Source of the DNA: Pardosa pseudoannulata
Taxonomy: Eukaryota > Arthropoda > Arachnida > Araneae > Lycosidae
NCBI GenBank assembly: GCA_032207245.1
Contig: CM063502.1
Location: forward strand, 64,666,544-64,730,543
Length of the DNA: 64,000 nucleotides
Direction: 5' to 3'
Made by a program: the position numbers and the translations under genes. The notes beneath the pieces are model-generated. The model ran no database searches and was not told the DNA's origin. It was given only the letters and a program-made list of their open reading frames with translations. Positions 19,315 through 58,134 of this stretch are shown here, piece by piece (the stretch's first letter is position 1; each line of letters begins with the position of its first letter).

Positions 19315-19319
19315 AAAAT

Positions 19320-19892: not shown

Positions 19893-20219
19893 TCAGATTT
19901 TTTTTAACTTATTGTGGTCACCATCTTCCATCCACAGAAATTTGAGATAATTTCTTTCACGTTTGCAAACTCTAATTTGTAAGAATGCTTGTTTAATATC
20001 GGCGGTAACAGCAAAGTCTTTCATGCGAAATCGAGTTAAAATTACGGGAATAAGTTCTAGAAGATTAGGACCTTTGGCGATACAGTCATTTAAGGACGGA
20101 CAATTTTTCAGGTGTGCCGAAGCATCAAATACCGGTCGGATCTTCGTAATAGCTGAATTCTTTACCACTGCTGTATGCGGTAAATAATGTCCCAGTTTTG
20201 CTTCATCATCTTTCTTCAA
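19893..20219 (-). pseudogene. BEL/Pao reverse transcriptase, finger and palm part
   Basis: Signatures are GHYLPHTAVVKNSAITKIRP, VFDASAHLKNCPSLNDCI, KGPNLLELIPVILTRFRMKD and FAVTADIKQAFLQIRV, then LKFLWMEDGD. The ADIKQAF aspartate is the first catalytic Asp. This copies the element's RNA to DNA in virus-like particles. A frameshift follows. Confidence 0.88.
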
Positions 20220-20496
20220 TTACTATATCCTTCAACCAATTTTGTAGAACATTTTGATAAGCTTCAAATATGGTAGCTGCTTTCCATTTTCTAATTGTAG
20301 TTTTTAACCTTCTTTCGGCCAATTCTTTCCCATCAGGAAGTGTGGTAGGTAGTTGGAGCCAAGGCAATGTTATTTCATACCTCCCTTCATCGTTAATTTT
20401 GAGACTGTGTTGAAAATGCTCATAAGCAGCTTCGTGAAATTCTTTCATATTTTGCCTTTCAAAGGGTCTAGAATTCCTATTCGTTCTAAATTCCAC
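20206..20496 (-). pseudogene. BEL/Pao segment between protease and reverse transcriptase
   Basis: A 96-codon open stretch with GRYEITLPWLQLPTTLPDGK and LAERRLKTTIRKW. It is the usual linker before RT (GRY.V.LPW......LPDN...A..RL). It overlaps the next frame by about 14 bases, which shows the frameshift. Confidence 0.78.
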
Positions 20497-20547
20497 ATCG
20501 GAAAGATTAATATTACCAGCTAATAAAGATATGATCGATAGATAGGA

Positions 20548-21000
20548 TTAAGTTATTTGAGGAACTTTGAGCATCAACGTCCATCCCAAATGTGTACCAA
20601 CAGCTACAGGTCCATGTGGTAAATAGTGAATTTTCCCATTTAGCAATGTTCCTGCCACATCGGCGCCTATGAGTAGATGGACTTCCGATCTAAATGCTAA
20701 TGAGAACTCATTATCACGATCAGTCAGCTTTATGCCTCTTTTATGTAGATCTGTCATCCAAGATCCATGAGGAATCTTCGATATATCGCCACATATTTTT
20801 TCTTGCTCTAGAACCTCAAAATCACAGTTGTACTTCTCATCTAAGCTAATTAAGAATACCTTAAAATGGCGATGTTTCTGTTGAGGGGATTCAAGGCCAC
20901 CAAATAAACTATGGACTATACGAATTTCTCCTAAACTTTCACATTTTAACAATTTAACAGCTTTGGAACTTATATAGGACCTTTGACTACCAAGTATCAA
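20548..21000 (-). pseudogene. BEL/Pao aspartic protease segment
   Basis: The frame begins just after the active-site triad (GSQRSYISSKAVKLL) and ends LLIGADVAGTLLNG, GPVAVGTHLGWTLMLKVPQI, which is the DUF1758/A17-type protease tail that cleaves the polyprotein. The active-site Asp-Thr lies in the upstream frame (ends RALLDT at 21000). A short tandem repeat of TACTTGA at about 20997-21011 puts a stop and frameshift exactly at the catalytic site. Confidence 0.82.
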
Positions 21001-21317
21001 GTATCAAGTAGAGCTCGCATGACATATCTCCCCTTCTGACCTCTAATGTATACTTGTAATGTTTGTAACAACCCCCCAGATGAACTAGACTGACTAGCCA
21101 ACGTCTGACTTTTCGACTGGCCACATTCCAAATTTTCATCTGATTTAGGAGCCTCAAATTTAGATTCAGAGGGAGGATTTGGACACATGATTATACAATG
21201 AATTTTATCACACAGAAAATATTGTATTTTACTCTTACATTGTTTCGATACATGGCCTCTCTTTAGACATCGGAAACAACATCCGGCTTTTTTTTGCAAG
21301 TTCGAGTTTTTCTTCAA
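20997..21317 (-). pseudogene. BEL/Pao gag C-terminus: zinc knuckle and start of protease
   Basis: The CCFRCLKRGHVSKQCKSK segment holds a CX2CX4HX4C zinc knuckle, the nucleocapsid RNA-binding motif. The second knuckle appears decayed. The frame ends at the protease RALLDT, where it stops. It is part of the gag-pol polyprotein. Confidence 0.82.
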
Positions 21318-21365
21318 TATTCATTTTTTCGCTTTATTACACTCTTGTGAATAATGTTTTTTCTC

Positions 21366-21590
21366 TCAAAAAATACATCTTTTTTCATCATTTAAGTTTG
21401 CGTTAAAAAGCCCTGCAGCGGTTGAGACTTTACTTTTATTCCCATCAAAATACTGCTTATTTGTTTTCTTATGTGTATCTCTACCACCGTCAAAAGTGCT
21501 CCTAGCAATCGCTAATCTTAACTCCCCTTCATCTTCCGATTTCAGAAATTCCATTAGAATATCCAGTTTATTAATTTTGTCTTCTCCCAT
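21366..21590 (-). pseudogene. BEL/Pao gag middle segment
   Basis: 74 codons continuing gag: INKLDILMEFLKSEDEGELR then LAIARSTFDGG. It is separated from the large gag frame by frameshifts around 21600-21710 and from the zinc knuckle by a break near 21340. No further domain is seen. Confidence 0.65.
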
Positions 21591-21711
21591 TTTCTTTGTC
21601 TTTTACTAAGAGAGAACTAACATGCCGTTCCCATATCTTTAAAATATCCTCTCGAAAACAACTCTCAGCAAGAGGATATAACATAGCTGCATATTTGTCT
21701 GAAGTGAAGCC

Positions 21712-22428
21712 TCATGTACCCAAAGCTCTTAAATGCACTTCAATTTTATCATATAACTTCACAACATTACTCTTATTATGATTCAAAACCAAATTCAACA
21801 ACTCTCGTACGTATACTTCTATCAACAACTCATCTTTGCCGAAGAGAGATTTCAAACATGCAATTGCTAATGAGTAATTTTCGCCAGTAGTCGGGAAACT
21901 CTCAACAAGGTCACGAGCTCGGGATTTTTCTGTAGTACTTTGTAAAAGATAAACAAATTTATCCTCATTCGATAATTCTGGGTCTTCATGTATTTTCTTA
22001 AATATAGACCAAAATTTCAGCCAATTTTTAATCGATCCGTTAAATTTCTCTAATTCTAATTTTGGCAATCTAACAGTTTTTTTATTTACCGCTTCAAGGC
22101 TGGCCATATTAGAAGAAATCTGTTTACTAGTTTCATTTTGAATTGGTTTAGCTCTTATTTTTAAAGTAATATACTTATCTGTGTAACACGATATACTTTC
22201 GTATTCTTTGTAGTAAACATTCTGTTCTACCGAGTTATCTTTAATCAATAAACTGAGTATTTCATTATCTGCCGTTTGCAGATTCTGATATTTATCGCTC
22301 AGAAGCGAAAACGAAATTTCAATTTCTTCAATATCAATTGGTTTAGCTTTTAAAGCTTCTTCGAGTCTATTTGCATCTTTTATGAAACTAGTGGGTAACG
22401 GTGTTCTAACTTTCATTAAGTTATCCAT
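21712..22428 (-). pseudogene. BEL/Pao gag N-terminal part (DUF1759-like)
   Basis: The longest open frame of the element, 238 codons from an ATG 70 bases inside the primer-binding site. RLPKLELEKFNGSIKNWLKF, then FVYLLQSTTEKSRARDLVES and IACLKSLFGKDELLIEVYV, match the F.G....W..F...F...I......S...K...L......G.A...I pattern of BEL gag. It forms the particle coat. A frameshift ends it at ALGT. Confidence 0.88.
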
Positions 22429-22491
22429 AATTACTTAATACTAAAATAATAATTCAGTATTTCAAGATATCACCGTCATTTTAAAAACCGG

Positions 22492-29987: not shown

Positions 29988-30227
29988 TCTGAGCATAGCT
30001 TAAAGCTGTTGACTTTATTGTCTATTTTTGTTTCCACCACACACTGATTAACATTTTTGTTAATGTAACCTTCAGTTTAGTTTTTTCAACTTAACCAGCA
30101 CTTTCTAATTGTTTTTTCTTCTACTCCGTGAAGAAGCCCTCACTGCATGCTAATTTGTTTTGTGGACTGTATTTCACGTCCAGCTGAATATATAAAGGCA
30201 AGTCGCTGGTTATGCTGGGTGGTGGTA

Positions 30228-30612
30228 TTATTTTGATGATTAGTGAGCTGTGTCTCGTTTCTCACCATGTCCTACGCTTATTGAAGATGCCTGTTTTTTA
30301 TATTAGACTTAATGTTTTTTTTATTATTTTGACGATTAGTGGCCTGTGTCTCGTTTCTCACTATGTCCTACACTTATTGAAGATGCCTGTTTTTTATGTT
30401 AAACTTAATGTGTTTTTTATTATTTTGACGATTAGTGAGCTGTGTCTCGTTTCTCACTATGTCCTACACTTATTGAAGATGCCTGTTTTTTATGTTAAAC
30501 TTAATGTTTTTTTTTATTATTTTGACGATTATTGAACTATGTCTCGTTTCTCACTATGTCCTATGCTTATTGAAGATGCCTATTTATGTTAAACTTAATG
30601 TGTTTTTAAGAC
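30228..30612 (+). repeat. Minisatellite, four units of 96-97 bp
   Basis: The unit begins TTATTTTGACGATTAGTGAG and continues CTGTGTCTCGTTTCTCACTA and TGTCCTACACTTATTGAAGA. Unit starts are 30228, 30324, 30420 and 30517. The first three are very similar and the fourth is more diverged and shorter. 96 is divisible by 3, so a frame stays open through it (107 codons, Leu/Phe/Val-rich). I regard this as a by-product. Confidence 0.93.
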
Positions 30613-37888: not shown

Positions 37889-39081
37889 CCATTACATGAT
37901 GACCATCCTATTAATAACATGTAGGACTACCTTTAGCCCTCAAAACCGCCAGCACCCGGCGTGGCATTGACTCCACAAGGTGATGATAGGCAGTCTGAGG
38001 TAATTAGTACCAAGCACTCACCAACTGGTCCTGCAATAGACACACATTGCGAGGGGGTAGCGTGGTAGCACGAATTTGGTTTTCCAGGTGGGACAACAAA
38101 TGCTCTATTGGATTAATGTCAGAGGAATTTGGAGGTCAAGAAATGGATTTAAAGTCACTGGAATATTCCTCGAACCACTCCCTGATGATTTGACCCTTAC
38201 GATGTGGTGCATTATCCTGCTGGTAATCACCATCCCCCGCCGGAAATATTGTTTTCATAAATGGGTGAGCCTGGTCTGGAATAATGTTCAAGTAGTGAAC
38301 AGACGTCAGGGATTGTTCTATGGGGATTATGTGTCCAAATGTGCTCTTGAAAACATTGCCCATATCATAATACTTCAGCCACTGGCTTGTTTCCGTCCAA
38401 CTGTGTATTGGGAGTCAGGGTTTCCTTTGGAAATCGGCGTATTCGCACAAGCCTGTCGATGTGATGGATCCGAAAATGTAATTCGTCAGACTCTGCAACT
38501 TTCTTCCATTCTTCTAATGCTTAATTCCCATCTTTCTTAGCCCATTGCGAATGCAGCTGGCGATGACGTGTCGTCAGTGCAGGGACATGTTTCTGCCTCC
38601 GGATACGTAGACCCATACGTAAAGATGCACGCTGCACATTGTGTTGAGAAACACTGTCTGGGTTGCCTCTGAGGTAGCTGGTGGTGATTTCGGCTCTTGT
38701 AGCTCTTCGGACACGGCGAACAATATGTGTATCAATACCCGTTCTCCTCTGGAATCAATGCAAAGTGGATGACATACGGCTTGCTGCGAATTGTAGGTTC
38801 ACCATCCATACACCACTTTCGATATGTGATCATAACAACTGTACGCGAACAGCCCACTAAATATTGATATTCTCAGTCGTTTCTGATATTGATTCCTCAT
38901 TCGCCAGGCCATAACGATTTGACCTTTATCGAAGTCGATAAATCAGCTGTTTTTCCCATTATGTCGCTAATCGAGGTATATCTGGAAAGAAAATGCATAG
39001 CAGCCTTATGTATTCCAACGCCAGCAGCGCACTTGTAGTGGTTTTGTTCCTGGGCTAAGGAAGGTGGTCATAATATAATGG
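37889..39081 (-). mobile_element. Tc1-like transposon with inactivated transposase
   Basis: Terminal inverted repeats are CCATTACATGATGACCATCC (37889 on) and, at 39081 inverted, CCATTATATTATGACCACC. The minus strand encodes a DDE_3 transposase relic. Near 38955 is MGKTADLSTSIKVKSLWPGE (the usual helix-turn-helix start). Then come YQQDNAPHRKGQIIREWFEE, NSSDINPIEHLLSHLE, the Asp and Glu of the DD34E triad, and the end MPRRVLAVLRAKGSPTCY. Stops and frameshifts interrupt it (for example after KSIS and after SAWY). The element is about 1.19 kb, short for Tc1, and dead. Confidence 0.85.
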
Positions 39082-40069: not shown

Positions 40070-40080
40070 ATGCATAGGAG
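40070..40080 (+). CDS. ENTPD: NTPDase gene, putative coding exon 1
   Basis: ATGCATAGGAG before a GTGAGT donor. It joins exon 2 in phase 2 to give MHRRYECERLLNEMYTVY, with no stop and an in-frame stop just upstream of the ATG. The start context is weak (C at -3). Support is the exact phase fit to an otherwise unexplained open frame at the start of exon 2. Confidence 0.6.
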
Positions 40081-43000
40081 GTGAGTGTTATTCGAAATTT
40101 AACTTAAGATGGTACAACATTTTTGTAATTTATTCATAAAATCTGATTTATGTATATTACTGATTAAATATTTGTCATTTTTTATAATTCCCCCAGCACC
40201 TCCTCCCCCCAAAAAATTAAAAATTCCAGAATTTATTTTGAATTTGGATAGTATAAAAACTTCCCTACTAGCAACTGTTATTCCTGCTTTACCATTAATC
40301 AAATGTGCCATACAAACGGTAAGAAACGTGCAAGGATTATTTTATTAATGAAATAGTTGTTCGATATTTAACAGCTTCATTCAAAAGAAACAACTGATAA
40401 TTGTTTAGTCCAATAAGCAATTCTTAAGATTAAAGAAGAAGTAAGTTAGTAGAATCATTTTATTTTCTGAATGCATTCAGTGAATTTTTTTAAATACATT
40501 TTTTAATTTATTTTTTATTTGTGTTATAGTTTTATGATTTTGAGTATTTTTTAAATAAATTTTTATTAAATTATTCATTATAAATAAATAAATAGGCTGT
40601 GATACTTGGGATAATACAGTTTTCTAACATGGCATAATGTTTTAAAATTTCATAATAAGTTAATTTTTCTGTATGGCAGTGAGTCAGAGTTTTAAATCTT
40701 GTAAATTTACTCATGATATTTAGTTTATTTTTCATTTTTAAAGAAGCATTTTAGTCATATGATGTACATTTTTTCTGAATAAAATTAAATGCTCTGTTAG
40801 GTTTAAAGGATGGTGTTAAAAAATGAGTGCAAATATCTGGAATAAAGAAATAATAAATATTGATGATCATGGTATTGAATAGCACTATTTTAGTTTGTGA
40901 TTTTATTTCAATAAGATCATAGTTTAACTGCAATCTCAAGTATGAACTGGAAACTTTTGTTAACTAAATAATGATGATTTTTCTCTTCCTTGAACTTTAT
41001 TACATCATTTTTAGGGTTTTTGTAAAGTATGACTTTTAATTAGCTTCAGATTTTCATAATTTTTTTACTTTTATTTATTTCTGTGCATATGTTACATTAA
41101 TTGAGCTATAGAAATTTTTTTTTTCTAGGTATGAATGTGAAAGACTATTGAATGAAATGTATACAGTCTATGTAGAGAGCAGTCTTGCTAGTCCATTAGC
41201 AGGATCAGTGACTGTTGAAATAAACCCAAGAGACACAGTTCGAAAACTTATTAGTGATTTTTTATTTGCATTAGAGAGAGATGATGGTGTTCCTGGATTG
41301 GCTGTTTTTGATAAACATTATAATAAACTAGATTGGGATGCTACTGTGGAATCTCAGGGCATAAAACAAGGATCAAAACTGTATTTGGCTTATGATAGTA
41401 TGTTTCCCTTTAAAAAAAAAAAAAAAAAACTGGGCATATTTTATGTATTAAAAATAAGATTGTTTTTTTAATGTAATCCAGTGTTTATTTGTGCTACTAT
41501 ACTTTTTAAAACTTAAGTCTGTTTCATTTTGTAAATTTTCTTGCTGCTTAAATCTAAAAATTTAAATTTGTTTGGTGAAAAAACTTAAATTTAAAAAATA
41601 GAAGTTTACAGTTCTTTTGATTTTTTTAAACCTTTATATGAGATTTATATAGGTATTAGAAATTCTATAATTTTTTGTTTGAACTTCATATAAATTATTC
41701 AAAATGCTTATATTTTATTATATATGTTAAGCAACTTTAATAATGTTTTTTGAATGGTCATCTGTTTGTATATAATAATTTTTTTTTCTGTTTCTAGAAA
41801 CATCATTTTTAAAACCAGTTCATATTGCAGTTGTAGGATTTTTTACAATTTTCATAGCAACAACTCTCTTTATAACTACAACAGTTTTATATGAAACAAC
41901 AGGTGGAGATATACCTTTTGATGTATGTAGTTTTATATATAATTTTTTTTAAAGAAACTTTTTTTTCAAAGTATGCATTTACAATTTTATGTAGACAATT
42001 AGGGTAAATTAAAATATGAATTAAAATACTTTTTCTTCTAAACATTATATATTTATATATTTTTAAAATTTTGATCACAGTTGTATTCAGACTATTACAT
42101 AATTTTAGAGAGTAACAGAAATACAGTGCACTATAGCATCAAGAGCTATTTAAATTTTTATGTCAGTCTGGATTTCTAAAAAATTTTAGAAAAAAATATC
42201 TTTTTCGCATGCACAATGTTTTTTTTTTTTATTTTTAAGAAATATCACGTTTATATCTCATCATATATTCAATACTTTAATTTTAAATTTCAGTATGCTT
42301 TTCTTGAACATTGACAACATTTAGTTAAAAACCTTCGACTTTAGTTCCTAAAAATGGGAATTTTTTTTTATTGTTATAGAGAAAATGATTATATCTTCTA
42401 AATCATGATGCTATTTTTGCAAAAATTTATCTAAAAATTGTTAAATGTTACAAGATATATTACAAGTCATTTTAAAATTATGATATATTTATAATGCCAA
42501 AATTCTTAAAAAAAAAAATTTCAGTTTGTAAATAATCACTTAAATGATGCTCTTGCCAAAATTTTGCTGGACAATATTAGCATATTTTTTTGTGGTTAAA
42601 ATATCAGAATGAGTTGTTTAGTATTTTTTTTCCTTTTTAAGATATTTGAAAAAATGTCTAAAGTTCAAAGTGTCCAATGACTTTTGGCTGTATAATGTAT
42701 AAACACACATATATATATATATGTGTGTGTGTGTATGTGTATAATTTCACAAATCGCTTTGTCATTGAATCTTAATTGTTAGTATAAATTCATTGTAGTA
42801 TATGCCTATCACAGTACCATAAACATGGCTTTCATCTTATATTATAAAATCTTATGATATAAATTACTTTTGGCTGTCAAACAAAATACTGATTTCATAT
42901 ATATGTGTGTGTTTATGTCATATAATTTATATATTAAATATCTTTGTGGCTTATAACTGTAGAAAGTATTAGAATGTATTATTTTCTTTTTAGTATGGAA

Positions 43001-45400
43001 TTGTCATTGATGCAGGATCAACACACACTGAAATTTTTCTTTATCAGTGGTCTGGTAGCAAATTCAATGGTACTGGGGAAGTTAACCAAAGGAATTTTTG
43101 CTACATTGAAAGTATGTTATAATAAATTTTGTCATATCTTTTTTGAGTTTTGTAAAGATGTTTAAATAAAATATTTTATTTAAACATTTCTAATTTTCTG
43201 TAGTTAATTTATGGAATTTTAATTAATTTATGCTAAACCTTTTACTTAAAGGTTAAACAGATTTCCTTTCTAGAATATGTGAGTTTAAATTTACCGGGTG
43301 TTATGGATGTTCATAGTCATTTAGGAGATTATTTGGGAGCATCAGAGCTAACTTACTAAACTGAGGCATTTTGCATAAAGTCTATTTCAAATGGTTATAA
43401 ACATTCATGCTAACCAATAGAATTGGAACCAATGGACTACAGTACTGAAAATTAGACCTCTTTTTGTTTGGCTGATTTCAGAGTTAATACTTTTATTATT
43501 ATTTTAAATTATGTGAAAATTGGATTTCCATTTTTAACTGAATTTTCTCAAAACTTTTAAATTATATGTAATAAAATGCAAACCTGCATGTATATAATTT
43601 TTTTTTTTTCTGCTACAGTATAAGAATGTACTACAGTAGATAAAATGTTTTTATCTTTTAGAGGGCATAGCTGAAGGGTATGATCCTGCAGATATTGTTT
43701 CTTGTGTAAATAATGTGACAAGATCTTTGCCAAGTGATAATGCTACACCAGTGAAATTGTACTTAGGAGCTACTGCAGGAATGAGACTTCTAAAGTATGT
43801 ACCAGTCAATATTAAAAAAAAAAAAAAACTTTTCATTTATTTATTAACAAAAGTAGAAGAATTCTGATACTTCTTGAGATATTGTAATAGTCTAGTTCTC
43901 TTACACATTGATGAAAATTTATGCTTGAAATATTGCACTATGAGGTCACAGCTTCAATAGCCATTGTCTGAACTTTGTGTTTGTGTAAGAATTTGATTAA
44001 CAGGCATTACAGATACCTAATTAATAACTTAAGATGGGTGACTTAATTGTATGTGCAAGTGAGGATATTAAATTATTTTAAACAGTATTAAATGTAGAGG
44101 AAAATATTTGCTTTTCAGATTTATAGTATAATTTAGTAAAAATGGTTTTGCATCTGGGAAAATGTCTTTTAGAAAATATCTTTTAAATTTTATATCCAGT
44201 ACCACTGTAGTACTTTGACAAGGTAAGCTAGGGGAAACAGTTATCTTATAATAGTTAATACATATTTTGGATTTTTGGACATGAAAAGCAGGTAATTGAT
44301 TTATAAAAATTTATTATGTGTCCAAATGCTATAATCAATGGTAAATATGTAGAAATACCTAGCATTTACTCTATACCTGATGTTGAGTGATTCAAGTGTT
44401 GATTTAATTAGCATTCAGAACTTGAAAATTATCTATGCAGTTTAATGTTTTTATTAATTTTTTGTCATATTTATTTGCTTATGTGTATATTTACTCCAAT
44501 TGCATGCATAATTTGACACATACACATATATACATATAGACTATAAAAGTGTAATATATTTCCAAACAATTACATTTCTGTAAACAGTTATATTTTAATC
44601 TTGTATATGCTTATCTCTTTCTTTAATTCTGTTATTTTTCCATTTAGTCAAAGCAGCCCTATGGAAGCTCAGCTTATAATGACCGCAATAAAATATGCAC
44701 TGAAAACAACGTCAGTGCAGGAAGGATCAGTAGAAATAATTCAAGGACAGGATGAAGGCTTGTTCTCTTGGATCACAACTAACTTTTTAACCAAAACTTT
44801 TGTTCAAGATGCGGTTAGTATGTAGTTACTTTTATAGGGCCAGAGTCTGGTCAGGTACTATAAAGTAGAATATGTCCTGCAAGTAAATGGGAATTGTGGA
44901 CATCAAGGGGGTCTGCAGAAAAAGCAGTCCCTGATGATGTGTTCTGGTCAAACAGTTTTGACTCTAACTGCTGATGTGATAGTATGTCAGGATGAAGGTA
45001 ATTGAAGAATATGAACATAGAGTTTAATTTTACCAATGATTAAGTACCATTAATAAATCAATTTACTAGGACTTTTTCTGATAACTACCACTCTAATTTC
45101 AGTTACTTGTTATTTTACTTTATCAACCAGTTTTTTAACATTTGATAACTAAGCTTTTTGATAAAAGTGTCAAGGGTAACAAATTTTTCCAATTTTGAAA
45201 TTGAATTTTTAGCAAGATGGAGGAATTTGCAAAACTCATTCCAAAGGATTTTATACATACATAGATTTCCAGGTAAAAAAGAATACCAGAATCAATAGGC
45301 AAATAAATTGTCAATAAATGTAGGAATTCCAAGATCTGAAATTCTCTTCTTAAACAAGGTCAATGACTTTATAATACAAAATCAAACAAAAGGTGATAAG

Positions 45401-45450
<50 letters not shown>

Positions 45451-48400
45451 CCAGTAAAGGGGCAGGTGGTAGACCAACAACATTGGTCAATTTTTTGCCA
45501 TATTAGCAAAGAATCATTAGCATTTCAGGCAATAGTTTTATTGAAGGCATCACTGATGAATCCTGTGATAAATCTACATTGGTAAGTCATTTTCAGCTGT
45601 ATAAGTTGAATATTCAGAAATAAGTTATAATTTTACTTAAAATTGTGCTATATTTTCTTCTTACTAATTATTTTTCTTTAACAGATTCTCTAGAATCTGC
45701 CAAAGTTCTGAAGAAGATAAATAGTAAGAAAATTATCATTTTATAGTTCATTGTTAAATTTTCTAATGAAATTCATTATTAGAAAGAATTAAAGTAGCTA
45801 ATTTATTCTTTATAATAATAAATTTCATTTTAGAATTTAACAATTAATTTAACAATAATTTTAGTTATGATAATGTAGTAAAATGTGTGTTAATTTGTTT
45901 TAGTAATATCCTTTTCAATTTTTGTTAATTTTTCAGAAAATAATTCAGCAAATGCCAACATCATGGATTGTTTCATCTGTTGAAAAGTAATTATTTTCAT
46001 TTATTATTTGCATTAAAGTAATTCTGTTTGTTACCTTTCATAGTTACTATTATTTTTATTATTTTATAGACATACAGTAAGAGGACAGAAGCATTGTGAA
46101 AAATGTTGGGGCGTGTCTGCTGGATCATTTTGAAACCAAAGTACTGGATGTACAAAAGGATATGTGCAAAGTTACTTGGTTAACATTTAATCAGCATATT
46201 TCTGTCTTTTCACAACAGCAGGATACTATCATCATAAAAGACATATTTTTATCCATAAAAAACATTGAAAATAGGAACAAAAGCAATGAAACTTTAATAA
46301 TTAATAAAGCAGATATTAAAAAGCTATTAGCTTATGTACTGCATGACAACTAAAAAATAAATTATTTTAAAACATTTTTCAAAGGATGTTTTTATTTTTT
46401 TATTAAAAATACAGTTATTTTCCATACAGAATTCATAGAATTATTTTTATGTTAATATTTATAATGAATGAATAAGCTTATTTTTTATTAACAGGATTTT
46501 CATTTTACCTTTTGTAATAGAATTTTCCTTAATAACATAATAGATAGGACAGGGAGTATTGTTTAAAAATTTTTAAGAAATTAAGTAGTACAAGATTATT
46601 ATAAAGTAATATTAAATGTTTAGTAAAAATTTAATATTACTTTAATTAATAAAAATATAGAAATACCTTAATTTTTTAGGCAATACAGGTTCCAAATAGG
46701 GAGAATTTTGTCTCAGAAGAGATATTTTCAATATGAATTGAAAAATAAACTCAAATGTATGATTTTTTAAATTTTTTTATAGAACATATTTTCATCCATT
46801 TTTAAAATTGAATTATGAATTGTATTTGGGTACTCATATAAAAATTCAGAAATAACAATTTTGGCAACAACAATTTAAAAGTTTAATTTGATTAAATATT
46901 TCAATCAATGTAAATTTATACGGCTCATATTTTTCTTTTCCAAAATGCTTACTGCTCTTGAATAGTACATTAAAAAAATCCTTATGATAATTTTAGCTTA
47001 GTTACTGAAATTTCACAATATGAAAAGGGCTATAGAATCGAAATTATCTTAGATAGTGTATATAAACTTAAGGGGTTATTTATTATCACAGAGAAGTGAA
47101 ATACATTAAGTTTTGTCAAAATCTGAGTTGGTGGGTGTTAAAATATCTTTTTTCTAGTTGATTTGATATAGAATCACTTTTGATTAACTGTAATAAACAT
47201 TATTACAATTCCCATTCTTATTGTATTTCTTTGACATCAAATTATTATTTTAATATAGCTACATAAAGAAGCATACTAAAGATGCAATTAATATGAATAA
47301 TAATAGTTGAAATATTTAAATATTGTGTAAAATGGCACATGCTGTAATGATTTTGCACACTTTATCTCTTCTTATGATTCACAAAAACAAAAAAATATAG
47401 TTCTGCTGACCTTCCAATATGAAAATAGGAGCAATCAATTGCCTCCACATAAATTTGAAAGTCACTGTTATTTTAAAAATCTGTTTTGATATCCATAAAT
47501 TCTGAGACAGTGATAAGAAACTGAATATAGTATAATATATACAAATAGCATCCACAAACTTTTTTAAAAAAAAAATCTTGATACAGATATTTGTGGAAAA
47601 CCGCTTGTTGAAGCAACATGATGAAAGGTCCCAGAATCAAAAACATACTTACAGCACAGCACCAGCATATGCAAATCATCTATAAATAATTACCTTATTT
47701 TGAAGTAGTATATAAATTTATTTTAGAGTAGAACACAATTTACACATTAATAATCTTGTATAAATCAGTAAAAACTATATATTTATACTCAAAGATTTTG
47801 ATGCAAGCTTAAAATGCATGCTTTGATGTCTTGACTAAAGAACTGGGTTCTCCTGCCAACTTGACGTTAATGGTTTAAGTATGGTCTCCTAACATTTTCT
47901 CCTGATCTCACCATGTCCAAACAGTATGTATAATTTATATCAAACCATTTTAATATATGAACACATTTAGGATTAAAAATTATACATTAAGATAAAGTAT
48001 AAGGCATAACATCAGAAGATAGTAAACATAAAAAGTTAAATAAAAGCATTTTACTTATTTATATTTCTTTGAATAGCTGCTTTCAGTTCCTCTCAAATGA
48101 GGTCCTAATTCTTTTACTAGATCCTCAATGGCTATTTTCAAAATCTTCTGTTAAAGGTTCATTCTTTCATTTTGAATGAATTATCTCTGTCTTGCAGTTC
48201 CCATATATTACTTCTTATGTGTTAAAGTCTTCATTTAACATGACAGTGCAGTGATGTCTGCCATGTTTATTTACCATACAGAGTTAACAGGGTTTTTAGA
48301 AGCTTCCAGCTACTTCAAATATTGGTTTGCTTATGCCTGTAATTGTGACTAGATATCCTTCCACATGTTTCGCTTGCTTACCAAAGCTAGCTTATCTCTG

Positions 48401-49689
48401 TCACTTAATGGGAGAAGGGAAAGATATGTTTGACCAGAATCTGGCCTAAGATTTTGATATTGTGATTCATATTTATATGTGGCTATAAAATTTCTATATA
48501 TTTCATTAAAGAATTTTATATTTAAATTATTTCAAAGTTTATAAAGTTTTAATTTTTGTTTTAACTTTAAATAACTTTGATTACATGATTTATTTATAGG
48601 ACAGTACTACTTTTGGTGCTTTAGATTTAGGGGGAGCCTCAACACAGCTAGCTTTTGCTTTAGATTCTGATATAATTACAGATTCATCTGATACTGAAGC
48701 ATTGAAACTTTATGGTAAGAAATATAATGTACTGTCTAAGAGTTTTCTTTGTTTTGGACTTTCTCAAGCTGCTGACAGAAGTGAAGCCATTATTTTTATG
48801 GTAAGTTCTTTATGTAGTTATTAGTCTAATTCAAATTTTTTCAGTTTAATGCTACTTGTTGGATTTTATGCACTTAGTCTTCATTTGAAAGTTACTAGTC
48901 TATTTTATAGTAGTACTTGTACTTACTTTCTTACATTTTTAACTCAGCTTTTTGTTTTATCAATCTGAAATTTTTTCATTATATTTCAGAGTAATCCAAC
49001 AAATGGTACAATTACTGATCCTTGTCTTCCTGCAAAGTTTACACTTGAGTTTGAAACACGAACATTTTTGGAAGGAACATGTATTCAGAATAATAATGCC
49101 ACTATCTGGTTGCAGACACATGGATATGTAAGTGTTTGAATAAATGATCTAGAAGGGTACAAACTTTATAATCCATTAAAAGATTATAATATTCTTTTGA
49201 CACTAAAAAGACTAATATTTCTAATTTCTTAGATGGATTATGTTAATTTATATGCTTATTAAAAATTACTAGGTACTTTGCACCTAGCCTTCAGTCTAGG
49301 TTTTTAAGGTTATCAAATGAAAGGTTGTGTTTATTTCAAAATTTAATTTTTAGAATATATTACATCAGTAATTTTAAGAATTTTGTAAATAAAACAATCC
49401 AGTTTCATAAAATTAGTAACACATCTTATTTTAATTTTCTACATTTCTTTAGTATATTTGGGGCATTATCTTTGAAATTGGCTAAAGGAAAAGTAACTAC
49501 ATTATTTACATGACTTACAGGGAATTAATATCAAGACCTGATCTTGCTGAAGCTAATTTAAGATAATCAGAAATTTGCTACATTTTGATGAGATCAACCC
49601 TAAGCAAAAGGTACAAATAAAATGTAAAATATTTTTAATTTTGCTAATAATCACTTTGTTACCACAGTAATGAAATACATTTTCATTTG

Positions 49690-49720
<31 letters not shown>

Positions 49721-51880
49721 AGTTAAAAAGAAAGGAATTTTTCAACTAAAAATAGTTAAAATTAAATAATTCATTAAAAGTAAATCTAGTCAAAAAGTCT
49801 TTAATTTTTATATTATTTGTAACTATATTTTAAGAATTATCTCATGAGTTAAGTATTTTGAAGATTTTAATTATTTTAGCATGTGAATAAAAGAAAAATC
49901 TATGCAATGGGGCCAAAATATATCTCTATCATTTCTTTGACCTCTGAACAATTTGAATTACCTAAAACTTTCTCAGTGTTTACATGAACAGCAATGTAAA
50001 ATTACACCCAGATCTGTCTAGACATACAAGCAAGCAAAAGATTTTATATTCATAAATTAGAATAATCACCATTATACATTTAAAAAATTCAGAAAAGTAG
50101 CAATAGTCTTGAAAACTTTGTGAATTGATATATCCATGGTTTCCGCGCACCTGGAAAGTCAGGGAAAATCATGGATTTAGACAATGGATTAATTTTGTCA
50201 TGGAAAGTCTTGATTTTTCAAGTAAAATGAGTAAAAGTCATGGAAAGTCATGGATCTACTAAACTACCGATTAAAAAAATGCATTGAATTGTTTAATTAT
50301 ATTTTTATTTGTCATTTGGCTGAAGTTACTGAGTTTGATATTTAGGTATTATCCCATTGACCCTATTGCCAAGTAAAATTTGTTCACCAATGAAACTCAA
50401 AGCAAGAAAGCTTAATGGGTGGGTAAATGTATATTATTCTGGTTTTTTCATAAATTGTAGATTAAAATTTTATTAATATAATAATTATTTTTAATAAAAA
50501 TGCACAAAATATAAATTTATCTCTAGGTATATTGTATATAATCATTATAGAGTTATATTTGGCTATTATTCATGGTCATCTGGATAATACCAAAGTACCC
50601 TGAATTCAAATTGGAAACATTTTGATTGAAAAATTGCTATATGATTAAACTTAGGTATGTAGATACAACAATTTATTTTTTATGTATGTGAGTTTATTAA
50701 CACTTATAAAGTAAGTTTATAGTTTTTTATGATAAAATTCCTGTAATTTCTCTAAAAGAATATATTTTATTTGTATGTACATAAGAAGTTTTATCCATAT
50801 ATACTTTAACAAAAGCTTTTTAAAGTCATGGAAAATGATCTGCTAAATCAGGGAAAGTCATGAAAAGTCATGGATTTGAAAAATTTTATTTTGGCAGATA
50901 CCCTGTATATCCCTTTTAAAAGTAATTGCTTCTAAAATTATCCAGAATGACTGATTCAGTCATTCTTGTGTAAGTAGCAGTCAGTGGTATTAGATAAACA
51001 ATATTTTACTAATATTTCAAACATGAAAATTGTATTTTTATCAACTATTTATTAATGTGCATCAGTAGACTACAAAAAATGTAACATGTACAACATACTT
51101 TTTTCATTTTCTTTGTTATATCAATAATTATATAATTATTAATCACAATATTTAAATTGCTGTAAATATGTTTTCTTTGTTATTCCCTAAGACTAATATT
51201 CAGATCATTGCTGTCTTTGTTACTGGTGTGCTTTGATCTTGAAACTAAATAAAGTAAATGCATTATAATAATAGATCATATAGTTTTTATTTGTTTGAAG
51301 TATTTAATAATATGGTATTATAAAAATATGGATGTGTTGACAATATTCCTTATCAGTCTGAAGATCAAGAAAAAATATTCTGTATATTATCTTAAAAGTA
51401 ACTTTACCTAAAGCTATATTTGAAAAAAGATTTGTTGAAATTTTTATTTTTAGCAATATTTTAAATCTTTACACTGAAACTTGTATTTTTAAATTGTGCT
51501 TATGGGTCATTCTGTATCATTTCAACCAGGAATCAATGCAAGGTATGTCTAAAAAGAAATTGGTTTAATGTCATGAGAACCTTTATTTTTTATTCATCCT
51601 AATTTAAACCTTATTGCTTTCAATATCCTCTGCACCATGATCCTATACCATTCTACACATGTTTTCCTTTGGTCAATTTTTTGACCAAAGGAAAATGTGT
51701 TCAAGGTCAATTTTAAGAAGCATGTTTATGGTCTCTTCCACTTTGTGTTTTATAACTTGAAATGTCCCAAATCTCATTCCTTTCAGTACTAATTTTTTCC
51801 TTTTGAATAAAAAAAAGTCACAAGCAAGGTTAAGCTGATTGACTTGATAGGGGTGTATGTTCCAACTCAGGCATCCCATG

Positions 51881-51921
<41 letters not shown>

Positions 51922-53272
51922 AACAATGTTCATTTAAGATTTCTTTGTTCAATTATGAAAATCTTTGGCTTTATATTTGACATTTTTTCTAATGTTAAAA
52001 TTTCATGTAAATTCTACCAAACATATTCAGAGTTAATATGTATGCTTTCAGCAATAAATATTTACCTAACCTTCTTTTCAGGTAAAATCCCTTTTTTTCC
52101 TTTTTTTAAATCTTGTTGATGTGACAGGTCATCCTAGACATGGGTCATATATAATCTCCTCATGTACACCTTTGAGCTGTTGAAAACACCCAGAAATATG
52201 GGGGTATAAAGTAATTCATCACTGTATACTTTTTTTCAACAAAGAGTGATTTTATGTAGGAAACTTTTTATGCTTTACAGGAAATTTCATGTTGCTCTTT
52301 TAAAACAATATTTTCCTGGTAGCTGCTTATACAAAGTCCTGTATGAACGAAAGGCACAGTCCATTTTGATAAAACTTGGTGTACTTTTCTTCTTTATGGT
52401 TTAAAGTAATTTTTTTTTATTTATTTCTCTTTCTTTTATTTAATTTTACAGCCTTTTTGAAATTCTGAGATTTTACAAAGAAGGAATTATTCAAAGTTGC
52501 AAAATTTGAAAAGGGGTATAAAATTTAAACTGACCTAGAAAAGTTAGTTTTTTATAACCATAAAACAGTACATCAAGTTTCCTCAAAACTTGTTTTGTTA
52601 AAATAACACTTTTATTGTTGATTTAATATCATATAATGTATATTTATGTTATATGCATCAATATTTACAATTTTATGAGTATAATCACTTTATATTCTTA
52701 AACTATGTGCCAAATTTAATGAGTATTATGTATTTCTTTATGTTTTCAGATACAGAAGCTTACAGTAATAGGCAGCAGTAATTATGAAAAATGTGTAGAA
52801 AGTGTGAAGAAATTGGTAAATGTGGATACATGTCAAAGCATGGGATTCTCACAATGTCTTGAAGCTGTGGACTTAGCTAAGCAGAACAGAAAATTTATGG
52901 TAAAATTTTAACTATTGATTTTATACTTTTTTTTGAAAAAAACTTTCATTTGTTTCTTTTTTTTAAAATATACAGGATTAATGTTAGTTTATGATTGTTA
53001 TTTTTTAATTATTTGATTGAATTCTTAAAAATCTTTTAAACTTTAAGGTTACCAAAGAAATATCATTTTGAGTTTAGGAAAACATGATTTAAATATTTTC
53101 TCTTGTAAAAATTTTATTTATCAGATTATATGTTTTGTTTTTTGTTTCTAACAACGCAATCATGTGAATTTAGGCTTAAGAATACATGTAAAAGAAAGAT
53201 CTTATGATATAATTTGGTAGAATTCTTGTTTTCTACTATTCTATGCCATACATGCAATGATATATATACACA

Positions 53273-53360
<88 letters not shown>

Positions 53361-56300
53361 ATCTCAGTAAAAGGTTGTCATTTGGTACCAGTCTGAGTTC
53401 AAATCCTGCTGGTGGCATGGAAGTTTGTAGCCATTTGAAATTAATTGTAAGCAGTAGACCTCATTAGCCTTCATGTAATAAAAATGTTGATCACAGTAAC
53501 TGTTAAAATCTAACAAACCTCATTACAGGGGGATTTGATATGAAGATATTATTTTGGTTGGCTCTGTATGTAGATTTGGTTAAACAAATAAGTTGGATCC
53601 ATTACTGCATTCATACTGGAAGCTCAAAAGTAACTGAGAAAAGACAAGAAGAAAAAGACAGAATTTGGTTTGAATTGACTAAGTGTAATTTAGTTGGTAT
53701 GAAAGCTTTGCTTTGGAAAGTAGTGCTACAGTCGATTTTTTTATTACATAAGAGTTATTCAGACTGGAACCTACTGCTTAAAGATGATTCCAAATCTATT
53801 TGAACATCCATGCCAGCAGTAAAGTTTGAACCTGTAAACTCCATACCAAATGGCAACACCCTAACAATTTGGTCATTGTTCAGCATTAATGTGAAAACAC
53901 CATGTTGATTCTAATTTGTTTTATTTAAACAGAATTTGAGCTTTGTCTGTAGTTTTCAAATATGTATTTTCTTGTGTGTTTTCCTGCCAACTATATTTAC
54001 TTTCTTTTGAATTCTTTTTAGGCATTTTCAAGTTATTATTATGTTGTAAATTATTTGAGTCCTAATGGTACTTTGGCAGATTTTATCAAGGCTACAGAAC
54101 AGTTCTGTAGTCTGTCTTATGAAGAGGTATGTTTTTAAATTTTATTTAAATTTAAATGCATAATTTTTAATTTTTCTGGATACATTTTGAATTAAATAAA
54201 AATATAAACAACTCTTACGAACTGTCAGGAATTTCAGAAATGTATTAATTATCACTGTGCTGTGACATTGTTCTGCAAAGTACATAATTAGAGCATTATA
54301 TTTTCTTTAGATGTAATCAAGTGAAATTATATATGTATTTAACTCTAAAATCTAACATTAATTATCCACATCATGTATATGAGGCACAGTCAGAAATTAT
54401 TATAGATTTTTTTTTTTTTTTTGTAAATTCATGTAACATCCTGCTAGGAATATATCTTAGCTGATGAATGACTCTCTTCTGAGATGAGGTTAAAAATATA
54501 TCTTAGTTTATAACCATACATCATCTATTGCTTGATATGACCCCAACACATTGTAGCAAGAATCATTCTTTAGATGAAACTTGCATAAAAGATTACAATA
54601 GTGGTAGTTCATATGTCTGTGGCTGGGACTGCTACTGTATTCTCAAGAATTTACAGGTATAGACAATAAGCAAAAAGATAATGATTGGATAAATATCAGT
54701 AAAGAGAAAATCACTGTAACAAAGGATAGGCTCCTGTACTTGTCAGTGAATTTAAATCAGTCATTAAAAACAAGCTTCCACTTTTTAAAGGTGAAACATT
54801 TTGTTTGTTCTCCAATAAATCTACACCATTTGTCAAAGCCATCTCTAGCATTTTTGTGACCCTAGGAAAAATACTAGCACCAGTCTTTTTTTTTTTTGTA
54901 TTCTAGTTCTAGCTACCCATATTCATTTACAGAACCCATTAATATATCTCAAATTAATAATTGTTTATCAAAATTTAATGTATACATTTTAACATATAAT
55001 TAAAATCCTGACTACTAGTTTTTCAGTATTCTTCAATAAACTGAACATTACTTTCTCTCCTCTCTTATTCAATAGAAACAAAAATTACCTTTGTTCTTTA
55101 GGAACTCTTTCCATTAACTGCATATTTGTTGAAAAAAATTATTGAAAGAATAGTGCTTATAAATTCCATAGAATAAATATAGATTAAAATTTAATTTAAA
55201 TACTTGACTATCCATACTTTAAATAATATCTATTCAGTTAATGCTAACCATTATATTTGGCATTGTCTTTTAAACAAGAGATGACTAATCTTAAACTCCA
55301 AAAGAGCAATGTTGTGTCATTATGTTGAAAAAATGTTGAATTTGGCAAAATTTATGAGACACTTTGACTTGATTCATTGTTTCTCATTTGAGATACTATA
55401 AACAGGATAAAAGTAATCCTGGCATGTTTTACACTATAGTAAACCTACAGCTTTCAAGGCTTGAGGCAGAAATCTATCTCTAATTATTTCATTACAGAGT
55501 TCACTGGTCAAAATTCATTAACCTCTCTTAAAAAGTTGGCACAAGTTATAAAAAATCTGCCTTTTATAAAACAATTAGGAATACTTAAGGAAATTTCATT
55601 TCTCAAAGCACTAAAAATCATTTGCATATCATCTACTTAATTACTCTGTTTATTCTTTCTATTTCTTAAAAAGTTACTATGTACAAAGATTGCGTGGAAC
55701 ATCAAGATAAGCAGAGTAAACTTCGCAATAGCTAGAAAAAAATTCTGCTAAACTGCATTTATGTAAGTTCGGGACCTTAAAAAATTTTATAAGTAGAAAA
55801 TTAAAATATCAAATGTTATGTTATGCTTTTAAAGCAGATCATGATATCCCAAAACCTACAGCTTTCAAGGCCAAAATTTTGAATATGTATTAAAAATGTA
55901 TATTTTGAAATTTTGTATCTAATACGATTTAATTTTTTCTCTTTTTTAAAATCTAGATTAAGAACAAAACTACAGACAAAGGACTTCTAGGTCATTTGAT
56001 AAGATACTGCTTTGGAGGCGTTTACATTAAAGAGATACTTACTTCAACATATGGCTTTAATGAATCAAATTGGAAAAATATATTATTCCAACAGAGTGTA
56101 AGTTTTTATAATCTTTAGATACACATAAATTTAAAATACTATCATCTTCACCTAATATTATCTGATGTAAATATCAAAGGCAAAAATTAGAATAATAAAC
56201 TTTTAAAGCAAAATGCCATAAGAAAATTTGTTGATGAAAAAAATGTTTTTAGTTTTAATAAGAAAGTTATTGATGTTAAAGCTAAAGGCAGAATTTAAAT

Positions 56301-56473
56301 GTGGGCTTTAGTATAATACATTTGAATTATGGGTATGAGGCTCTCAATTGACTCAGTTCTAAGCATGTTGTATTCATTCTATAGCCCCTCTTATGCTGTA
56401 TAGTCCATAGTTTCAAGGAATTTGGTAGGCTTAAAAAACCCCTATCAGATAAGCTAGAAAATGGGGTAGAGTT

Positions 56474-56532
<59 letters not shown>

Positions 56533-57526
56533 TTGTGGCTTTCAAGAAGGTATGTTACTCATGGCAAGGTTGCAGTCATAGGATAGAGCTAAAAGAAAGA
56601 AGTATTTAGCTTAAGCAAATTACATAAAGAATCACTCACCATTGCAGTACATATCCTTGACCATACACTTCTTTAGTAGGGACTTGTGAGGTTTGGTAGG
56701 TTTTACACATTTTCAGTACTATTGGAGTAGTCTCCAGTACTATCAGAGGAATATTTCCAGTACTAATGGCAGAAAGGTAGTCTGGTAAAATAAGTCTAGA
56801 GACTAAACGCCAATCTATTGGAAGCAGCTACTAAAAGAGATATTAATTTATATAAAGGAGAAGACTTCAGATTATTGCTGATGGAGTAAAAGAAAACCTA
56901 GGACACCATAAGACATTAACTAATTAAGATAACCTCCCAGCAAGTTGTAGATTTTGACTTAGTAAAAATGTTTTGAGATAGCAGATATTTGGATAAAATT
57001 TATTTTTTATATTTTCCTCATGTATTTAATATTAAAATTGCAGCTATTTATGCTGATTTATTTGATTTGAAAAAGCTATAGATTGAAGTAACCTACAGTA
57101 TGGTAAAGATACTGGCTTGCAATGTGATTATATATTATTATGAGCTTTAAAGGTTAAAAAATGCCAAAAGAAATATAAATGGATGGCAACTATGTAGAGA
57201 AATCTTTGTAGCAAATAAAAATTAAGTTCATACCATCTTGTATTTCATATTTAGAAAATCTTTTTTGGTTATATGCTTTTTGACCTTTATTCTTTCAGAT
57301 AAAAGGTGCTGATGTTGGCTGGGCTCTTGGATATATGATTAATGCCACTAATGCTATTCCAGAGGAACTGCCCAAACCACCTGTTATAAGTTTAAGTGCC
57401 TTCATTCCTCTTGTCCTTATTAGTTTTCTAATGGTTTTGTTTGCTCTAATATTATTACAGAAAACATTTAAATTTTGTAAAAGAAAGCAAAGAGATACAT
57501 TGTTAGATTCAATGGCAGATATTTAG
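40070..57526 (+). CDS. ENTPD: CD39-type ectonucleoside triphosphate diphosphohydrolase with N-terminal ubiquitin-like domain
   Basis: Twelve exons: 40070-40080, 41129-41397, 41798-41922, 42994-43111, 43662-43794, 44648-44813, 48600-48800, 48990-49127, 52750-52899, 54022-54126, 55957-56097 and 57299-57526. They total 1785 bases, 594 residues and a stop, with GT/AG at every junction and matching phases. Order: short basic start; ubiquitin-like domain (about 14-93); membrane helix (HIAVVGFFTIFIATTLFITT); apyrase regions YGIVIDAGSTHTEIFLY, LGATAGMRLL, GQDEGLFSWITTNF and FGALDLGGASTQLAF; Cys-rich glycosylated C-terminal lobe ending VGWALGYMINATN; second membrane helix; short basic tail. The layout matches cell-surface NTPDases (human ENTPD1/2/3/8), which hydrolyse extracellular ATP and ADP to AMP. 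ACR4 keeps its catalytic Glu. About nine N-glycosylation sequons are present. The ubiquitin-like domain would face the cytosol. Exon 1 is the least certain part; if absent, translation would start at 41157 (581 residues). Confidence 0.93.
41129..41397 (+). CDS. ENTPD: NTPDase gene exon 2: ubiquitin-like domain
   Basis: The acceptor is TTTTCTAG and the donor GTATGT, and the exon ends in phase 1. From MYTVYVESSLASPLAGSVTV, through EINPRDTVRKLISDF and PGLAVFDKHYNKLDWDATVE, to SQGIKQGSKLYLAYD, it has the ubiquitin fold pattern: two beta strands, TV..L helix, LxVFD strand, and the closing L....TVES.GI..GS.LYL strand. There is no Gly-Gly end; the chain runs on into the membrane-helix exon. Two out-of-frame ATGs (41131 and 41152) precede the in-frame ATG at 41157, which favours a start in exon 1 or implies translational control. 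Confidence 0.85.
41798..41922 (+). CDS. ENTPD: NTPDase gene exon 3: N-terminal membrane helix
   Basis: Acceptor TTTCTAG, donor GTATGT. With the A carried over from exon 2 it reads KTSFLKPVHIAVVGFFTIFI then ATTLFITTTVLYETTGGDIP. It has no ATG in frame, so it depends on exon 2 upstream. Lys on the cytosolic side and a long hydrophobic run fit a type II signal anchor. Confidence 0.9.
42994..43111 (+). CDS. ENTPD: NTPDase gene exon 4: apyrase region 1
   Basis: YGIVIDAGSTHTEIFLYQWS is ACR1, the phosphate-binding DAGSxHT loop. The donor is GTATGT after ATTGAAA. A longer ORF here merely reads into the intron. Confidence 0.93.
43322..43478 (-). mobile_element. tRNA-derived SINE, family 1, diverged copy in NTPDase intron 4
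   Basis: Inverse order of AAAGTCTATTTCAAATGG, TTATAAACATTCATGCTAAC, AATTGGAACCAATGGACTAC and TTTGTTTGGC follows the family layout with many substitutions. Confidence 0.55.
43662..43794 (+). CDS. ENTPD: NTPDase gene exon 5: apyrase regions 2 and 3
   Basis: It reads KGIAEGYDPADIVSCVNNVT, then PVKLYLGATAGMRLL (ACR3). ACR2 is reduced to KGIAEG. The acceptor is TTTTAG and the donor GTATGT. Confidence 0.92.
44648..44813 (+). CDS. ENTPD: NTPDase gene exon 6: apyrase region 4
   Basis: It contains IIQGQDEGLFSWITTNFLTK, with the catalytic Glu of ACR4. The donor GTTAGT follows GCG. A second GTATGT lies five bases on, but only the first keeps frame with exon 7. Confidence 0.9.
44870..46353 (+). pseudogene. 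Unidentified coding-like segment in NTPDase intron 6
   Basis: Several protein-like stretches lie on plus. KWELWTSRGSAEKAVPDDVF appears near 44885. KIIQQMPTSWIVSSVEK (45937-45986) ends at a GTAATT and can be joined over a TTTTATAG acceptor to HTVRGQKHCEKCWGVSAG. An overlapping 86-codon frame (46096-46353) reads VKNVGACLLDHFETKVLDVQ onward to IKKLLAYVLHDN and stop, followed at once by AATAAA. I do not recognise the family. Possible readings are a retrocopy with lesions or a small nested gene. It is not part of the NTPDase frame. Confidence 0.4.
45403..45448. repeat. Poly(A) tract in intron 6
   Basis: 46 consecutive A residues. Confidence 0.95.
48600..48800 (+). CDS. ENTPD: NTPDase gene exon 7: apyrase region 5
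   Basis: DSTTFGALDLGGASTQLAFA is ACR5. LYGKKYNVLSKSFLCFGLSQ follows, matching the LYG..YNVYTHSFLCYG stretch of human ENTPD1. The exon follows a 3.8-kb intron. Confidence 0.93.
48990..49127 (+). CDS. ENTPD: NTPDase gene exon 8
   Basis: 46 codons including TDPCLPAKFTLEFETRTFLE and GTCIQNNNATIW. The cysteines are likely disulfide partners of the C-terminal lobe. Confidence 0.9.
49690..49718. repeat. Poly(A) tract in intron 8
   Basis: 29 A residues. Confidence 0.93.
50135..50905. mobile_element. hAT-like non-autonomous element in NTPDase intron 8
   Basis: The left end CATGGTTTCCGCGCACCTGG and the right end, inverted, CAGGGTATCTGCC resemble the CAGGGTTTCCGC termini of some hAT elements. Near each end AGTCATGGAAAGTCATGG-type words repeat in opposite sense. 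TATATC flanks both sides (50129-50134 and 50906-50911). The interior is AT-rich and has no transposase. Confidence 0.6.
51886..51917. repeat. Poly(A) tract in intron 8
   Basis: 32 A residues. ORFs through it on either strand are artefacts. Confidence 0.95.
52750..52899 (+). CDS. ENTPD: NTPDase gene exon 9
   Basis: 50 codons: IGSSNYEKCVESVKKLVNVD then TCQSMGFSQCLEAVD. The spacing of Cys residues mirrors the G..NYQQC...I....N...C....CAF part of CD39. Confidence 0.9.
53261..53360. repeat. Compound (TC)n(TA)n(CA)n microsatellite in intron 9
   Basis: TA, TC, TA then CA dinucleotides in sequence. It abuts a SINE copy whose head it has replaced. Confidence 0.96.
53361..53519 (+). mobile_element. 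tRNA-derived SINE, family 1, copy in NTPDase intron 9 (plus orientation)
   Basis: GAGTTCAAATCCTGCTGG (B box), GGCATGGAAGTTTGTAGCCA, TTGTAAGCAGTAGACCTCAT, then tail. The A box is lost at the microsatellite junction. Confidence 0.72.
53755..53884 (-). mobile_element. tRNA-derived SINE, family 1, copy in NTPDase intron 9 (minus orientation)
   Basis: ACTGGAACCTACTGCTTAAA, GATGATTCCAAATC, GAACATCCATGCCAGCAGTA, GAACCTGTAAACTCC and ACAATTTGGTCATTGTTCAG follow the inverse family order. With the copy at 53361 it forms an inverted pair about 240 bases apart. Confidence 0.72.
54022..54126 (+). CDS. ENTPD: NTPDase gene exon 10
   Basis: 35 codons, AFSSYYYVVNYLSPNGTLAD then FIKATEQFCSLSYEE. AFSxFYY is a family hallmark. 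Confidence 0.92.
55957..56097 (+). CDS. ENTPD: NTPDase gene exon 11
   Basis: 47 codons, GLLGHLIRYCFGGVYIKEIL then TSTYGFNESNWKNILFQQS. The YCF.G.YI...L...Y.F....W..I.F pattern matches CD39. Confidence 0.92.
56478..56529. repeat. (TA)n microsatellite in intron 11
   Basis: About 52 bases of TA. Confidence 0.96.
57299..57526 (+). CDS. ENTPD: NTPDase gene exon 12: terminal exon with second membrane helix
   Basis: IKGADVGWALGYMINATNAI closes the catalytic lobe. ISLSAFIPLVLISFLMVLFA begins the C-terminal helix, and a basic tail KTFKFCKRKQRDTLLDSMAD leads to the TAG at 57524-57526. Confidence 0.95.
   Translation: MKGADVGWALGYMINATNAIPEELPKPPVISLSAFIPLVLISFLMVLFALILLQKTFKFCKRKQRDTLLDSMADI

Positions 57527-57854: not shown

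Positions 57855-57931
<77 letters not shown>
57855..57931. repeat. (TA)n microsatellite
   Basis: About 77 bases of TA in the putative 3' UTR. Confidence 0.96.
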
Positions 57932-58111: not shown

Positions 58112-58134
58112 AAAAAAAAAAAAAAAAAAAAAAA
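58112..58134. repeat. Poly(A) tract
   Basis: 23 A residues. Confidence 0.9.

Follow-up and report, generated by a model that had tools for sequence, protein, structure and literature searches.

The CD39-type ectoenzymes set the levels of extracellular ATP, ADP and downstream adenosine. They are studied as targets in clotting, cancer and immunity, but how they are controlled from the cytosolic side is poorly understood. Surface enzymes of this NTPDase class have both termini in the cytosol. Ubiquitin-like domains (UBLs) that are integral to membrane proteins are known from TMUB1/2 and HERP, which are not known to have a catalytic ectodomain, and lobes with the ubiquitin fold are named in kindlin (F0) and talin. 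The two architectures meet in a 64,000-nucleotide stretch of the genome of the spider Pardosa pseudoannulata (assembly GCA_032207245.1, contig CM063502.1, positions 64,666,544 to 64,730,543), here called the window. A complete gene of ~17 kb on its + strand (40,070-57,526) encodes a predicted CD39-type NTPDase that carries a UBL immediately ahead of its first membrane helix. The whole statement proposed here is that this NTPDase has a cytosolic, non-cleavable UBL which docks trafficking or turnover machinery, and a probability of about 0.5 is assigned to it. The anatomical part of the statement is close to certain by sequence and prediction: a complete gene, a UBL exon that reads in frame into the anchor exon, a ubiquitin fold, no Gly-Gly end, and the same domain conserved in position across the range from amphioxus to spiders.

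The 12 coding exons are in consistent phases with GT-AG at every junction, and together they code for 594 residues with no internal stop. This frame and these junctions bear out the preliminary description of the locus, according to which exon 2 runs in phase into the signal-anchor exon of a complete CD39-type gene. The junction between exons 1 and 2 is of phase 2 and that between exons 2 and 3 of phase 1; exon 1 spliced directly onto exon 3 would be out of frame. The membrane-helix exon was said to have no start codon, and its sole ATG, at 41891, is indeed out of frame, so that an in-frame ATG is absent. Exon 1 had been guessed at 40070 from the sequence alone. Within 36.0-41.1 kb (5.1 kb upstream), two ATG-initiated openings no longer than 20 codons reach GTRAGT in phase 2, and exon 1 is one of them. 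Its phase fits exon 2, and the predicted protein start, MHRRYECERLLNEM, resembles MHQRK(S/G)E(Y/S)EPLL.EM, with which four orthologues from spiders begin (P0003, P0004, P0005 and P0008). Because three other spider models (P0002, P0007 and P0010) begin at the UBL itself, the second Met could serve as an alternative start, and the UBL would be whole with either one.

The ectodomain identifies the enzyme. It matches Pfam GDA1_CD39 with 240.8 bits against a cut-off of 24.9 (E 2.9e-71), and Pfam reports nothing else on the 581-residue protein apart from a sub-threshold match to Ppx-GppA. The closest PDB sequences are NTPDase1 (E 3e-69) and NTPDase2 (E 2e-66). All five apyrase conserved regions (ACRs), scored by the motifs that we take to define them, are present: DAGSTH at residue 141, GATAGMR at 210, GQDEGLFSW at 252, ALDLGGASTQ at 281 and DVGWALGYM at 524. 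The ectodomain has 10 cysteines and 10 N-glycosylation sequons, all of the latter between residues 160 and 534, and is flanked on each side by a membrane helix (hydropathy exceeds 1.6 in the 19-residue windows that start at 95-107 and at 545-561). The best-scoring protein among the matches listed is from Uloborus diversus (53% identity over 99% of the query), and in a tree of ectodomains the window protein stands beside it, within spiders (support 99/89). The gene product is predicted to be a CD39 (ENTPD1/2/3/8)-type NTPDase that would hydrolyse extracellular ATP and ADP.

The claim that about 80 residues of exon 2 have a ubiquitin fold agrees with the structure prediction and with profile matches. 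The AlphaFold2 model of the domain has the order beta-beta-alpha-beta-beta, a beta-grasp fold, at a mean predicted local distance difference test score (pLDDT) of 90.5, and the Foldseek rows listed for the model are mostly ubiquitin. A profile built from 30 named non-spider relatives finds the open reading frame (ORF) of exon 2 at E 1.6e-14, while the runner-up among the window's 2,025 six-frame ORFs has E 1.1; the same profile gives the real 80-residue domain 51 bits, compared with 8.0 for the top of 1,000 shuffles. Since these scores lie so far above those of the other ORFs and the shuffles, the domain is not a product of chance. A wider profile of 49 relatives, including four proteins of a second spider-type paralogue, yields E 7.8e-16. 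The family profile matches polyubiquitin at E 3.3e-7, and the relative P0138 reaches Pfam YukD, which we take to be a ubiquitin-like family, with 27.4 bits against a cut-off of 27.

The window UBL alone is below the cut-off for every Pfam family, and its search against PDB sequences gives four weak unrelated matches, the best with E 0.017. Residues 1-125 alone gave 295 candidates in the protein collection, none with E<=10; we regard this result as a false negative due to the search mode, because the full-length search reveals relatives 46-71% identical over the same UBL.

The domain ends in YLAYDKTSFLKP and runs directly into helix 1, about 6-8 residues away. The C-terminal Gly-Gly of conjugated modifiers is therefore absent, as the preliminary description had noted. 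The position of the Ile44 type is hydrophobic in 53 of 53 aligned rows in the MAFFT register, in which strand 3 may be one residue off, and the positions aligned to Leu8 and Val70 of ubiquitin are not conserved; the comparison thus depends on the register chosen. Directly ahead of the UBL, exon 2 codes for ECERLL, an acidic-dileucine-like motif.

Table 1. Coding exons of the NTPDase gene and the position of its UBL (window coordinates)
Feature	Position	Strand	Content and evidence
Exon 1, coding part	40070..40080	+	MHR and 2 bases of codon 4; ATGCATAGGAG, donor GTGAGT
Exon 2	41129..41397	+	Residues 4-94, codons at both ends shared; whole UBL; 269 nt
UBL, residues 14-93	41157-41396, inside exon 2	+	Fold prediction, profiles, frame
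Exon 3	41798..41922	+	Signal anchor (membrane helix 1, ~residues 99-125) and link to ectodomain; hydropathy, frame
Exon 4	42994..43111	+	ACR1, GIVIDAGSTHTEIFLYQW; exon alone matches Pfam GDA1_CD39, E 3.4e-7
Exon 5	43662..43794	+	ACR2, YLGATAGMRLL
Exon 6	44648..44813	+	ACR3, GQDEGLFSW
Exon 7	48600..48800	+	ACR4, TFGALDLGGASTQ; Pfam GDA1_CD39, E 9.5e-14 over 48600-48824
Exon 8	48990..49127	+	Ectodomain
Exon 9	52750..52899	+	Ectodomain
Exon 10	54022..54126	+	Ectodomain
Exon 11	55957..56097	+	Ectodomain
Exon 12	57299..57526	+	ACR5, DVGWALGYM; membrane helix 2 (~residues 545-573), short basic tail, stop

The distribution of the architecture was followed in two protein searches, which together gave 215 different proteins (the best 120 of 1,647 and the best 120 of 1,295 matches); absence from this list is uninformative, and the taxon groups of contig-derived proteins were assigned by similarity only. 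In 59 of the 215 proteins, 110-199 residues precede ACR1, and every one of these matches the UBL profile. Seven close relatives were tested with the full profile and the other 52 with their own group excluded from it, the latter giving E-values from 2.7e-27 to 1.6e-6. The remaining 156 listed proteins have no match to the UBL profile at E<=10. The search of chelicerate and other arthropod ENTPD proteins that had been recommended thus finds the same N-terminus: the named carriers among the matches listed are the spiders Uloborus, Larinioides, Nephila, Argiope, Trichonephila, Caerostris, Parasteatoda and Oedothorax, the genera Centruroides, Tachypleus, Dermacentor, Ixodes, Rhipicephalus and Varroa, and also Nymphon and Folsomia. 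Outside the arthropods they are three tardigrades, Lingula, Dimorphilus, molluscs and Branchiostoma. The view that known ENTPD proteins have a short cytosolic N-terminus consequently stands for the vertebrates seen and fails for many bilaterian invertebrates and amphioxus, which carry an N-terminal UBL.

Fifteen of the UBL-bearing proteins come from contigs of 1.8-3.0 kb (source lgn), each of which holds the whole ORF of UBL, helix and ectodomain. Such contigs are most simply spliced transcripts, and they support the splice junction because an unspliced gene of ~17 kb and 12 exons could not yield them. The tardigrade protein P0104, folded at full length, has the order UBL, helix, ectodomain, helix, with ~11 residues from the last UBL strand to the helix. 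In 16 proteins from outside the spiders, identity to the window protein is 22-38% in the UBL and 33-40% in the ectodomain; on these sequences the UBL appears to have changed somewhat more than the ectodomain. In the mayfly Neocloeon (P0094), 81 residues precede ACR1 with no UBL match, and the protein sits on a long branch with the UBL-bearing springtail protein.

The ectodomain tree comprises 69 selected rows, namely the window protein and 68 of the 215 listed proteins; it has no outgroup, and its root was not inferred. Vertebrates and hagfish (18 rows, none with a UBL) form one starred clade (100/99), while the carriers on the tree include amphioxus, molluscs, a brachiopod, an annelid, tardigrades and chelicerates. 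With all labels the UBL state changes nine times; without seven rows of doubtful or alternative N-termini it changes three times, which we read as one change for vertebrates and hagfish and two for chelicerate-like contigs. It is quite likely that the UBL was present on the ancestral bilaterian enzyme and was lost on the vertebrate stem. Certain features of the tree limit this reading: amphioxus is not resolved as the sister of the vertebrates, and the tardigrades and the sea spider fall outside the arthropods. Because of these placements and the uninferred root, the vertebrate loss is the most economical reading and not proof.

Among the UBL-free rows, P0021 starts within helix 1 and P0043 retains an apparent last UBL strand, both resembling partial models. 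Carriers also have UBL-free neighbours: downstream of the UBL, P0035 (Nephila) and P0020 (Trichonephila) are 86% identical, but P0035 begins with MERENKLNERRSLFSSD; amphioxus P0144 and P0130 differ at the N-terminus in the same way. In the second spider paralogue (P0035 and P0037 as against P0020, P0022 and P0023) a short start like MERENKLNERRSLFSSD replaces the UBL at the same joint, and the MERENKLNERRSLFSSD start itself holds a dileucine-like motif. The UBL-free forms of this paralogue and of amphioxus could represent alternative first exons or errors of the gene models.

By combining these observations it is possible to propose how the UBL might act. From the known topology of NTPDases the domain would lie in the cytosol directly beneath helix 1, and the confinement of all 10 sequons to the ectodomain agrees with cytosolic ends. 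An integral UBL would be a module to be bound, possibly recruiting trafficking or turnover factors. Binding of an adaptor, aided by the dileucine-like motif ahead of the UBL, would then set the amount of enzyme at the surface. Since only ~6-8 residues separate the UBL from helix 1, it is conceivable that a bound partner might also influence catalysis through this helix. According to PMC7859358, the N-terminus of CD39 is palmitoylated and binds RanBPM, with lowered activity, and PMC2474703 describes Tmub1, a membrane protein with a UBL, as promoting receptor recycling. The link to p97, the proteasome or trafficking machinery that was suggested at first may be of this kind. The motif, ECERLL or E(Y/S)EPLL, fits docking where it directly precedes the UBL, here and in a number of the spider orthologues, but it is not universal. 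The docking mechanism, with its effect on surface level, is given odds a little below even.

The same short spacing, ~6-8 residues here and ~11 from strand to helix in the tardigrade model, would suit an inside-out regulator, in which the binding of a cytosolic partner would alter how the membrane helices move and in this way reach the active site, and would not act through trafficking. Grinthal and Guidotti reportedly found that helix dynamics affect CD39 catalysis. The lowered activity upon RanBPM binding (PMC7859358) points in the same direction, but the tardigrade linker is modelled with low confidence (pLDDT <50 at 90-96) and the UBL outside spiders is only 22-38% identical to that of the window, and this explanation is considered unlikely. 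A somewhat smaller chance is given to a lobe of the talin/kindlin or Ras-binding-domain type, which would bind, at the inner leaflet, either a small GTPase or acidic lipid and so position the enzyme; a fold shared with such lobes is no proof of function, the Foldseek rows are mostly ubiquitin, and no further FERM lobes follow the UBL.

A function mainly as a handle for quality control or degradation that docks p97 or the proteasome to the endoplasmic reticulum, of the kind known from HERP or UBX proteins, is about as improbable as the lobe. The ubiquitin fold adjoining a membrane helix would be expected of it, and mollusc members have sub-cut-off matches to TUG-UBL1 (E 2e-4, P0126), ubiquitin (E 5.1e-5, P0154) and OTU1_UBXL (E 0.024, P0142), but there is no evident reason for one ectoenzyme to bear such a handle permanently. 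Finally, exon 2 might belong to another gene or stay separate from the NTPDase in the mature transcript. The junction in this species is deduced from orthologues and contigs, yet the exon phases fit and the same fusion recurs in the 59 listed proteins of several phyla, including the 15 from whole-ORF contigs, which makes an artefact of gene prediction extremely improbable. Docking of trafficking or turnover machinery is preferred. A broader and decidedly tentative extension is that the UBL was the ancestral cytosolic control head of animal CD39, a built-in ubiquitin mimic which in the bilaterian ancestor coupled the clearance of extracellular ATP to ubiquitin-reading or trafficking machinery inside the cell; vertebrates would have lost it and have instead a short palmitoylated tail that binds RanBPM, and alternative first exons (P0035 and P0037 as against P0020) may give both a regulated and a UBL-free enzyme in some lineages.

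Several other elements were seen in and around the gene. Long poly-A and (TA)n tracts lie in its introns and 3' flank (45403-45448, 49690-49718, 51886-51917, 53283-53326, 56477-56528, 57856-57931 and 58112-58134). About 1 kb upstream of exon 1, broken ORFs on the - strand (37933-39067) resemble by eye a Tc1/mariner transposase, and two pieces of them match no Pfam family at E<=0.1. A series of long ORFs on the - strand (18334-22434) has gag-like and reverse transcriptase-like stretches and resembles by eye a BEL/Pao-type retrotransposon. A 177-residue ORF (62928-63461, - strand) resembles by eye the end of a non-long-terminal-repeat reverse transcriptase, with no Pfam match at E<=0.1, and an ORF on the + strand (30188-30535) contains an internal repeat, of which three copies can be seen by eye (LCLVSHYVLHLLKMPVFYVKLNVFF and variant forms).

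Both the enzyme family and the fold are already known, and the architecture is present in databases; within the reach of the literature search, neither its spread nor its likely loss in vertebrates appears to have been described. A fusion of an NTPDase, ENTPD or apyrase with a UBL is absent from the titles and abstract openings of the matching open-licence PMC papers listed, and two UniRef records (P0126 and P0142) bear the name 'Ubiquitin-like domain-containing', which is probably automatic. If the ancestral CD39 bore a UBL head, spiders, molluscs and amphioxus would offer a direct route to its regulators on the inside, and the short vertebrate tail should be re-read as the remnant left after loss of the UBL. 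The protein also provides a clear example of an ectoenzyme that permanently bears a domain of ubiquitin fold.

Compared with ENTPD1/2/3/8 (CD39; GDA1_CD39, PF01150), the window protein has the same two membrane helices, five ACRs and 10 ectodomain cysteines, whereas the vertebrate models examined have mostly ~44-57 residues ahead of ACR1 (extremes 24-107) without a UBL match and the window protein has ~136. With TMUB1/2 and HERP it shares a non-cleaved UBL beside membrane helices; unlike them, it continues into a complete GDA1_CD39 ectodomain, which sets it outside their class. The ubiquitin-fold lobes of kindlin F0 and talin belong to a multi-lobe FERM head, whereas here a single lobe is followed by a membrane helix. 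The NTPDases of invertebrates and amphioxus in the databases, mostly named ENTPD1/2/3/8, have the same succession of UBL, helix, ectodomain and helix, and the spider enzyme does not differ from them in kind.
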